Source: Geothrix sp. PMB-07 (lineage in GTDB: Bacteria > Acidobacteriota > Holophagae > Holophagales > Holophagaceae). Taken from it: DNA of 64,000 nt. The notes under the pieces are model-generated. The model worked only from the letters and a program-made list of their open reading frames with translations. It made no database searches and was not told the origin of the DNA. The position numbers and the translations under genes are program-made. Below are positions 20,386-22,554 of this stretch, one piece after another; the first letter of the stretch is position 1, and every line of letters starts with the position of its first letter. The stretch is from positions 1,240,992-1,304,991 of the forward strand of contig NZ_CP132333.1 of NCBI RefSeq assembly GCF_030758935.1, written 5' to 3'.

Positions 20386-20732
20386 GGGGCCCTCCGCGAA
20401 CCAGTGTACCCGGAGTGGGGAGGTGGGGGCGTGCCCACACCTCCATGCGCCCAGGGAAAACGTCCCTTCCTGGCCTGGAGAGCAGGCTGCAGATTCAGGT
20501 CTGAAGAACTGATCTCATTTTCCACTTATCGGAAACAGTGACTTCAATAAATTACAAGATCAGTTCTAACCGTTTCATTTTCAACCGATGTGCGTAATTT
20601 ATCAATCGAGTGTGTAAGAAAGTGTAAGTTTGATCGGGTGAAAATATTGTTAAAACATTAATATTTTCATTATTTATAGACATATTTGCAACGCTTGAAA
20701 AGCCTGAAAATCCGGAATACATTTGAGCACTT
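20386..20732. promoter_or_regulatory. AT-rich divergent control region with inverted repeat
   Basis: This 347-base gap separates leftward purSQ from the rightward HTH/receiver gene. The right two thirds are AT-rich compared with the flanks. It contains GAAAATATT (20640-20648) and its complement AATATTTTC (20660-20668) around 11 bases, and a GTGTAAG pair near 20611-20625. I see no gene. The palindrome is a plausible operator for the XRE-type regulator encoded immediately downstream, whose family usually binds such sites. Confidence 0.45.
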
Positions 20733-22001
20733 ATGTTTCACGAAAAATTAAGATCGATACGCCAGCAACAGCGAATTTCGCTTGATAAGCTGTCATTGCT
20801 TGCGGGGGTGAACCGGGCCACCATCTATCGTATTGAGATGGCTGCTGTTTCTCCCCGTGTTGACACGCTAGAGGCCATCTGCAAGGCCCTAGGTGTATCG
20901 ATTATTGACCTGTTTATGGAATGGCCTGCCGCGGTCAATGATCCAAAAAATGAGGTTTATCCATCCAGCGACTTTGAAACCCGATCCAAGGGAGGAGTGA
21001 CCCTCAATGTTTCGCCTTTCCCAGCTGGGTTGGGCCAGCGGCCGAGGGCCCCGAAGGGCGGGAAACGCGGCTCCAGGGGACGGCAGGTGGCGTGGGTGCA
21101 TGTGAATGAGGCGGTTGCGGAACTGATCCACATCCGCAATGCAGCTGACTTCGCCACGCGGCCCATTCAGTTTGAACCCGCGCCTTTTCTGCCACTCATT
21201 CCGCAGAGAGATCCGAACCTGCACCGCGTGCTCGAATCCACCCTGGATTGCTTTTCGGCGAACCTGGGCCTCCTGCGCTCGAATCCCTGCCTGCGTGTGA
21301 ACCTGGTGTCGCCGGAACCCGCTTGGGAAACGAGGGGGGAAGGGCCCACGGCCGTTCCGGAGCACGGCATCTCCATTGACTGGACCTGCGCTCTGGACCG
21401 CAAGGGATTGGCCTCCATCGAAGAGGCCCTGGCCGCATCCCTGCCCCGTGAGGAGGCCGGCCAGGAGTCTTCGATCCGGGTGTCCTGGGCGGTGGAGCCG
21501 CCCGGCCTTGCGGAGGTTGCGGCTGAGGCGGTCGGGAGCGCGACAGTGAGAATCCGGATGGCTTGTCAGCTGCAGCCGCACACCCCAACACGGGAGGAAT
21601 GCATGGGCCAAAGAGAAACACACGCCGCCACGATTCTGGTCGTCGAGGACGATCAGATGCTCCGCCAGTGCATGGTTGAATACCTGGGGCTGATCGGCCA
21701 CCCCTCCCTGGAAGCCTCCAACGGGATCGAGGCGGTGGAGATGGTGAGGCGCCACGGGCTTTCGCTCGGCCTGGTCTTCATGGATATCGACATGCCGCTG
21801 ATGACCGGGCTCGAGGCCATCCAGGAGATCGAAGGTGAGTTCCCGCTTTCGCGCATCGTGGTGATGTCGGGGGCAGACCCCGATCTAAGCGAGATCCGGA
21901 GTGGGATGAACGCCTTGCAGGGTTTCATCCATAAGCCGTTCTCGCTCAAAGAAATCTTCAGCGTGATCGCCCGGCTCGAAGCCAAACCCATGGCCTGTTG
22001 A
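20733..22001 (+). CDS. XRE-type HTH, degenerate histidine-kinase ATPase-like domain and receiver fusion
   Basis: A 422-residue fusion. Residues 6-61 are an XRE helix-turn-helix (ISLDKLSLLAGVNRATIYRIE). Residues about 119-280 read like a decayed HATPase domain: WVHVNEAVAELI, then RDPNLHRVLESTLDCF where kinases have the N-box, then a weak G-box-like tail. No HisKA histidine box or clear ATP-binding residues are seen. Residues about 300-416 are an intact receiver with D306/D307, phospho-Asp D351 (FMDIDMP), S379 and K401. A strong internal SD before M291 could yield the receiver alone. The following gene is a PAS protein 14 bases away. Confidence 0.75.
   Translation: MFHEKLRSIRQQQRISLDKLSLLAGVNRATIYRIEMAAVSPRVDTLEAICKALGVSIIDLFMEWPAAVNDPKNEVYPSSDFETRSKGGVTLNVSPFPAGLGQRPRAPKGGKRGSRGRQVAWVHVNEAVAELIHIRNAADFATRPIQFEPAPFLPLIPQRDPNLHRVLESTLDCFSANLGLLRSNPCLRVNLVSPEPAWETRGEGPTAVPEHGISIDWTCALDRKGLASIEEALAASLPREEAGQESSIRVSWAVEPPGLAEVAAEAVGSATVRIRMACQLQPHTPTREECMGQRETHAATILVVEDDQMLRQCMVEYLGLIGHPSLEASNGIEAVEMVRRHGLSLGLVFMDIDMPLMTGLEAIQEIEGEFPLSRIVVMSGADPDLSEIRSGMNALQGFIHKPFSLKEIFSVIARLEAKPMAC
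21592..21605 (+). promoter_or_regulatory. internal ribosome binding site for a receiver-only product
   Basis: GGGAGGA (21592-21598) lies 4-5 bases before an in-frame ATG at 21603, residue 291 of the fusion, exactly at the linker before the receiver domain. The match is better than that in front of the full-length start at 20733. It predicts a second, roughly 131-residue protein made of the receiver domain only. Confidence 0.55.
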
Positions 22002-22015
22002 GCCGGGAGCACCCC

Positions 22016-22522
22016 ATGACCCACGTGTGTTCCTGGTGCAAGACGAACATCTATCTTGAGGAGGATCCCGAGTCCTTCGGGGGAGTCACGCACGGCATCT
22101 GCCAGGCCTGTGCACGGAAGCTGTTCCAGGAAATCCCCATCCAGATGGACCACTACCTCAACGAGATGGACACGCCGGTGCTGCTGGTCAATCAGGACAT
22201 CACCACCACCTTCGCCAACCAATCCGCGCTTCAGATGCTTGGCGCGGGAGATGGGGAGCTTTCCGGCCTGAAGCTGGGAGCGGTGCTTCTCTGTCCGTAC
22301 GCCCAGTTGAAGGAGGGCTGCGGCCGACAGATCCATTGTTCGGGCTGCACCATTCGGCGCTGCGTGGAGATCACCCGCGATACAGGGGCGCCCTTCTTCG
22401 AGGTGCCAGTCACCCTTTCCCGCGCAGGGACCTCAGAGCCCTCGGAACGGCCCTTCCTGCTCTCCTCGATTCGTCTGGGAAGCATGGTGGTTCTGAAGTT
22501 GGACCCCCTGGCCGAAGCCTGA
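22016..22522 (+). CDS. PAS-domain sensor with N-terminal zinc-finger-like Cys pairs
   Basis: A 168-residue soluble protein from ATG 22016 (GGGAG upstream). The N-terminus has two CxxC pairs (CSWC and, after about 26 residues, CQAC) forming a probable zinc finger. A PAS fold follows, beginning DTPVLLVNQDITTTFANQSALQML. It is interrupted by an unusual Cys-rich insertion, CGRQIHCSGCTIRRC, which could bind metal or an Fe-S/redox cofactor. There is no kinase or output domain. It lies 14 bases after the HTH/receiver gene and is its likely sensory partner. Redox or metal sensing is inferred. Confidence 0.68.
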   Translation: MTHVCSWCKTNIYLEEDPESFGGVTHGICQACARKLFQEIPIQMDHYLNEMDTPVLLVNQDITTTFANQSALQMLGAGDGELSGLKLGAVLLCPYAQLKEGCGRQIHCSGCTIRRCVEITRDTGAPFFEVPVTLSRAGTSEPSERPFLLSSIRLGSMVVLKLDPLAEA

Positions 22523-22554
22523 GGCGGCACGACGGTGGATTGCCGATCCGGGTC

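Follow-up and report, generated by a model that had tools for sequence, protein, structure and literature searches.

A strong start-like site upstream of the receiver domain in an HTH-receiver regulator gene of Geothrix sp. PMB-07

ORF 20733–22001 of Geothrix sp. PMB-07 lies in the 64,000-nt stretch of DNA analysed here (the window) and encodes a protein with an N-terminal HTH domain and a C-terminal receiver domain. Does this gene also direct the synthesis of the receiver alone, and from what kind of protein did it arise? A preliminary description had placed a GGGAGGA sequence at a suitable distance from an in-frame ATG. Direct reading located GGGAGGA at 21592–21598 and the ATG at 21603–21605 in the frame of the larger ORF, with 5 nt between the last G of GGAGG and the A of the ATG. 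The ATG is codon 291 of the 422-codon ORF, and initiation there would give a receiver-only product computed at 132 aa and 14,542 Da, in agreement with the size of approximately 14 kDa expected earlier. The ATG had also been placed exactly at the start of the receiver; it is indeed near this point, but lies 8–10 codons upstream of receiver strand 1, the Pfam Response_reg match beginning at aa 301. This domain carries D306/D307, D351, S379, and K401, an acidic pair, Asp, Ser/Thr, and Lys, which we take to be the phosphorylation residues of the receiver. Since these residues are present, a free receiver would presumably be phosphorylatable. The 16S tail of the Geothrix sp. PMB-07 genome reads GGATCACCTCCTTTCT (the 16S end is also given as ...CACCTCCTTTCT), and therefore the anti-SD is standard.

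Table 1 Features of the ORF 20733–22001 region (window coordinates).
Feature	Position	Strand	Basis
Perfect inverted repeat GAAAATATT/AATATTTTC, arms 20640–20648 and 20660–20668	20640–20668		Direct reading
Promoter-like TTGAAA-17-TACATT, separated by 9 nt from the ORF ATG	20695–20723	+	2 found vs 0.8 expected in shuffles (weak)
Full-length ORF, 422 aa, 46.2 kDa: XRE HTH, decayed HATPase-like region, receiver	20733–22001	+	ORF, Pfam
HTH_3, aa 6–59	20748–20909	+	Pfam E 1.4e-10; 25–29 identities in 53–61 aa, 6 homologues
Putative HATPase-like remnant, about aa 113–282, without catalytic boxes	21069–21578	+	Alignments, predicted structure; no Pfam match
GGGAGGA, SD-like, −10.3 kcal/mol	21592–21598	+	Direct reading, duplex energy
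In-frame ATG, codon 291, candidate receiver-only start	21603–21605	+	Position, SD energy, folding, receiver controls
Candidate receiver-only product, 132 aa, 14.5 kDa	21603–22001	+	Translation
Receiver domain, aa 301–412	21633–21968	+	Pfam E 1.9e-16
Next gene, Cys-rich N-terminus and weak PAS similarity, 14 nt downstream of the ORF	22016–22522	+	ORF, Pfam, relatives

We compared the start signals at 21603 with those of other codons in the window. The SD duplex energy was −10.3 kcal/mol at 21603 versus −1.9 at the ORF's own ATG (20733), and 47 of the 48 crudely called gene starts in the window were weaker than the internal site. Within these 48 genes, 4 of 320 in-frame internal ATGs and 8 of 1138 internal ATG, GTG, or TTG codons had an SD at least this strong, 21603 included in both counts; at least one equally strong site (15956) may be a true start, the gene caller having gone too far upstream. 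Local RNA folding was −10.2 kcal/mol at 21603; the median was −18.7 across 301 internal ATGs and −14.7 across 47 gene starts. We also took 200 other internal ATGs flanked on both sides by 100 codons; the SD was as strong in 1 and the structure as low in 9, and none combined an SD of ≤ −8 with folding of ≥ −14 kcal/mol.

Receivers served as a further control. In 54 stretches of the own genome and the 29 best-matching other receiver loci in the genus, 77 places were found: 45 receivers at the C-terminus of larger proteins, 31 that were N-terminal or stood alone, and 1 excluded because it belonged to neither class. Between 20 codons before and 2 codons after the beginning of strand 1, no start with an SD of ≤ −10 was found in the 45 C-terminal receivers; an SD of ≤ −8 occurred in 5 of them, every one in stable structure. 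An SD of ≤ −10 was present in 9 of the 31 N-terminal or stand-alone receivers (many of which are orthologues of one another), several with an ATG 8 codons upstream of strand 1. The likely true receiver-gene starts, e.g., those of L093, L098, and L058, combined an ATG 8 codons before strand 1 with an SD of −10.8 and folding of about −10. The 21603 site looks like these starts of N-terminal and stand-alone receivers, which are likely genuine receiver-gene starts of the genus, and the SD described earlier as strong proved to be strong, well spaced, and accessible. Because the site matches probable genuine receiver starts in its features, we infer that initiation would occur at 21603. The nearest parallel among the receivers compared was L056 of the own genome. 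Its receiver lies at the C-terminus of a larger protein, and the GTG 8 codons upstream has an SD of −9.5 but sits in a very stable structure (−32.5).

To trace the origin of the gene, we collected its relatives. The HTH had 10 other matches in 77 family genomes, 6 of which extended to a C-terminal receiver (L159–L164). The remaining four comprised three HTH-PAS-like proteins only and L168, by eye an apparently unrelated cupin-type regulator. No further HTH-to-receiver members came from 93 class genomes searched with an HTH profile, in which ORF 20733–22001, itself part of the alignment, scored E 8.9e-34. Pfam was run on four of the six relatives; each has the HTH, PAS, and receiver domains, and HATPase_c was detected in L163 only. 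L163 retains what we take to be the phospho-accepting motif and ATP boxes, and L159–L161 and L164 have lost both. ORF 20733–22001 shares with the relatives the N-terminal HTH (25–29 identities of 53–61 aa) and the C-terminal receiver. In contrast, the relatives are 582–595 aa long (L159, L160, L161, L163, and L164; 460 aa in L162) and possess a PAS domain, which the ORF lacks. Since Pfam gave no match between its HTH and receiver, the ORF is regarded as a shortened, divergent relative rather than a full member. Its receiver scored better with ordinary hybrid kinases than with the HTH-to-receiver family, L163 ranking 13th of 83. The protein had been called a fusion; however, the HTH-to-receiver layout is common to the relatives and appears to be inherited from a hybrid-kinase-like regulator, not to result from a one-off fusion. 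With the boxes intact in L163 and degraded in at least four others, L159–L164 form a natural series in which a hybrid kinase can be followed as it becomes a DNA-binding response regulator.

Conservation of the start site in orthologues, which had been set as a check beforehand, was not borne out. None of the six homologues had a comparable start in the ATPase–receiver linker, and any ATG in the 35 codons upstream of the receiver had at most a weak SD. L161 had an ATG at −13 (SD −2.2), and the best start codon of any kind among the six was the GTG of L163, on strand 1 itself (SD −8.0).

The region between the HTH and the receiver was characterized by alignment, structure prediction, and codon use. 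The ORF has neither the N, G1, F, and G2 boxes, presumably those of HATPase domains, nor a phospho-accepting His. When aa 113–180 were aligned without gaps to 47 hybrid kinases, in the register set by the receiver, 0 of 300 shuffles did better, and the same test of aa 181–290 gave no signal (115 of 300). The mean alignment score of the middle region with five HTH-to-receiver family members was reached by 5 of 1000 shuffles, and the alignment with L163 alone was negative (z −1.14). Pairwise comparison with 45 kinases gave a z of 2.76, the maximum for 29 other window proteins being 1.43. Hybrid-kinase ATPase HMMs did not single out the region, with scores of 0.5 (45 kinases), 0.9 (26 kinases; 6 of 1000 shuffles as good), and −0.1 (21 kinases; 26 of 1000). 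The AlphaFold model of all 422 aa was unusable (pLDDT 35.4). The low-confidence model of the middle region (pLDDT 46.6) had kinase CA domains as its best structural neighbours (Z 8.8 to DesK); Foldseek E-values for this model were not significant, the best being 0.027 to a protein other than DesK. The two alignment tests, the pairwise comparison, and the low-confidence model suggest that the middle region is probably a decayed HATPase domain. Its frame stayed open in 46 of 5000 shuffles (0.9%), and synonymous codon use shifts at codon ~101 and is near-native from there on, the strength of this shift being matched by 5 of 500 shuffles. The open frame, the codon use, and the homologues support translation of the region. 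Because the change point falls at codon ~101 rather than 291, the receiver and most of the middle region belong together, and we rejected a recent join at the latter position.

We also examined where the gene occurs. The ORF lies in a segment of ~2.2 kb (20386–22554) between purS and an alkyltransferase-like (MGMT) gene. Among 43 other genomes with an MGMT-like match, 29 loci were examined; purS adjoined the MGMT-like gene in 28 of them, with no comparable HTH, receiver, or PAS gene in between, and was absent from the stretch examined in the other (L126). The segment thus looks like an insert in this genome only, and no terminal repeats were found in it. With the middle region as query (229 aa, 20913–21599), no match was obtained in 46 other genus genomes or 76 other family genomes, and weak matches appeared in 10 of 395 other phylum genomes (E 2e-4 to 0.009). 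Inspection of five of the ten revealed a single short stretch, LGI..S.PC..V, in four and no convincing match in L022; in L017, this stretch opposes a frame resembling what we take to be pyruvate:ferredoxin oxidoreductase. All ten were treated as chance matches on the basis of these five. The whole ORF as query found only receiver relatives in genome contigs (seven loci), nothing in viral contigs, and only partial matches in plasmids (<60%), the best within kinase genes.

Taken together, the explanation we prefer, with a probability of roughly 0.55, is an HTH-receiver regulator derived from a decayed hybrid kinase and equipped with a lineage-specific internal receiver start. The ORF would encode a DNA-binding regulator related to XRE-HTH/PAS/histidine-kinase/receiver proteins, which has presumably lost the PAS domain and the phospho-accepting helix and retains an intact HTH and receiver beside the decayed ATPase domain. 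Its product probably functions as a response regulator that receives its phosphoryl group from a separate kinase. The strong SD and ATG would have arisen in the ATPase–receiver linker in this lineage alone, and ribosomes probably initiate at 21603 as well as at codon 1, yielding some free 14.5-kDa receiver. The start-like site itself is real and lineage-specific, and that it serves as a source of some receiver-only protein is rather likely. If the free receiver acts at all, it would most likely be a by-product or a weak competitor for phosphoryl groups. Alternatively, the codons for Arg-Glu-Glu-Cys-Met may spell an SD and ATG by chance, with little or no initiation and only the full-length protein of importance. 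In-frame GGAGG-N4–8-ATG occurred five times in the window genes versus 4.34 ± 1.38 times in synonymous shuffles, so such sites arise freely; codon use alone would give GGAGG from Arg-Glu-Glu with a p of about 0.21 (0.33 × 0.64), and the absence of the site from the six homologues points the same way. However, strength, spacing, low structure, and place coincide in none of the 200 internal ATGs or 45 C-terminal receivers, an argument weakened by the choice of the 21603 site after the fact from 64 kb. Chance is a possibility to be taken seriously, but with the odds against it.

Other readings assign the short product a larger role. Under the model of the preliminary description, selection would maintain two products of the gene, and the short receiver would buffer phosphate or form heterodimers with the full-length regulator. 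The initiation evidence given above, the intact receiver residues, and the RcsD-Hpt precedent, in which a C-terminal phosphorelay domain is synthesized by itself, are consistent with this proposal, yet the start site is not conserved and no orthologue occupies this place in the 29 syntenic loci examined, and selection for two products seems unlikely. It is also doubtful that the receiver-only protein is the real gene and the HTH and middle region an untranslated or dying in-frame leader. Codon log-odds do reach gene level only from about 21630, the SD at the ORF's own start is poor, and L093 and L098 have 175–183 open codons 5′ of a likely true receiver start. Against this, the six homologues share the layout and have weak starts of their own (SD 0 to −5.6), synonymous codon use shows no break at 291, and the upstream frame would rarely be open by chance. 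A rescue of the receiver, in which the kinase core decays, a linker start arises, and one gene comes to encode a DNA-binding regulator and a free receiver tuning it, would parallel RcsD-Hpt with a receiver in place of the HPt domain; we consider it improbable.

CheY-like single-domain receivers that act as phosphate sinks are encoded by their own genes. The predicted 132-aa product would be such a receiver in form, but without a gene of its own. A limited literature search found no paper on receiver-only products from internal starts. Meydan et al. reportedly found the ArcB and other internal starts by Ribo-RET. According to a report that cites this work, alternative starts as a group have a stronger SD than annotated starts (PMC11005335). 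The 21603 site fits this pattern of an in-frame internal start with an SD stronger than the annotated one; however, those starts were measured, whereas this one is predicted from sequence alone. In Y. pestis, an internal AUU start with its own RBS allows rcsD to produce the HPt domain separately, as shown by mutation and western blot, and the authors report a putative internal site in many organisms (PMC10191623). Both cases concern a damaged gene of the phosphorelay-kinase type whose C-terminal phosphorelay domain is, or may be, made alone from an internal start; they differ in the domain (HPt versus receiver), the start codon (AUU versus ATG), and the distribution of the site (many organisms versus unconserved). 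If the 21603 site is used, a two-component protein could release its receiver as a free product with no need for gene duplication, and the gene would show how decaying hybrid kinases may be reused.

The surroundings of the ORF contain several further elements. The promoter-like TTGAAA-17-TACATT would yield a nearly leaderless mRNA for the ORF, and the 9-bp inverted repeat, which lies in AT-rich DNA upstream of the ORF, is a possible operator for the HTH. About 35–45 nt 5′ of their start codons, L159–L164 have a common ATTGACAAT-like element (ATTGGTGAT in L163 and ATTGATAAT in L164), possibly an operator or promoter box; inspection of the 60 nt preceding ORF 20733–22001 did not reveal it. Downstream, gene 22016–22522 is probably co-transcribed with the ORF. 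Weak relatives of its Cys-rich PAS-like product were found in 4 of 46 other genus genomes, and in both loci opened (L028 and L029), the relative lies not beside a receiver gene but beside the same kind of TPR-ended gene.
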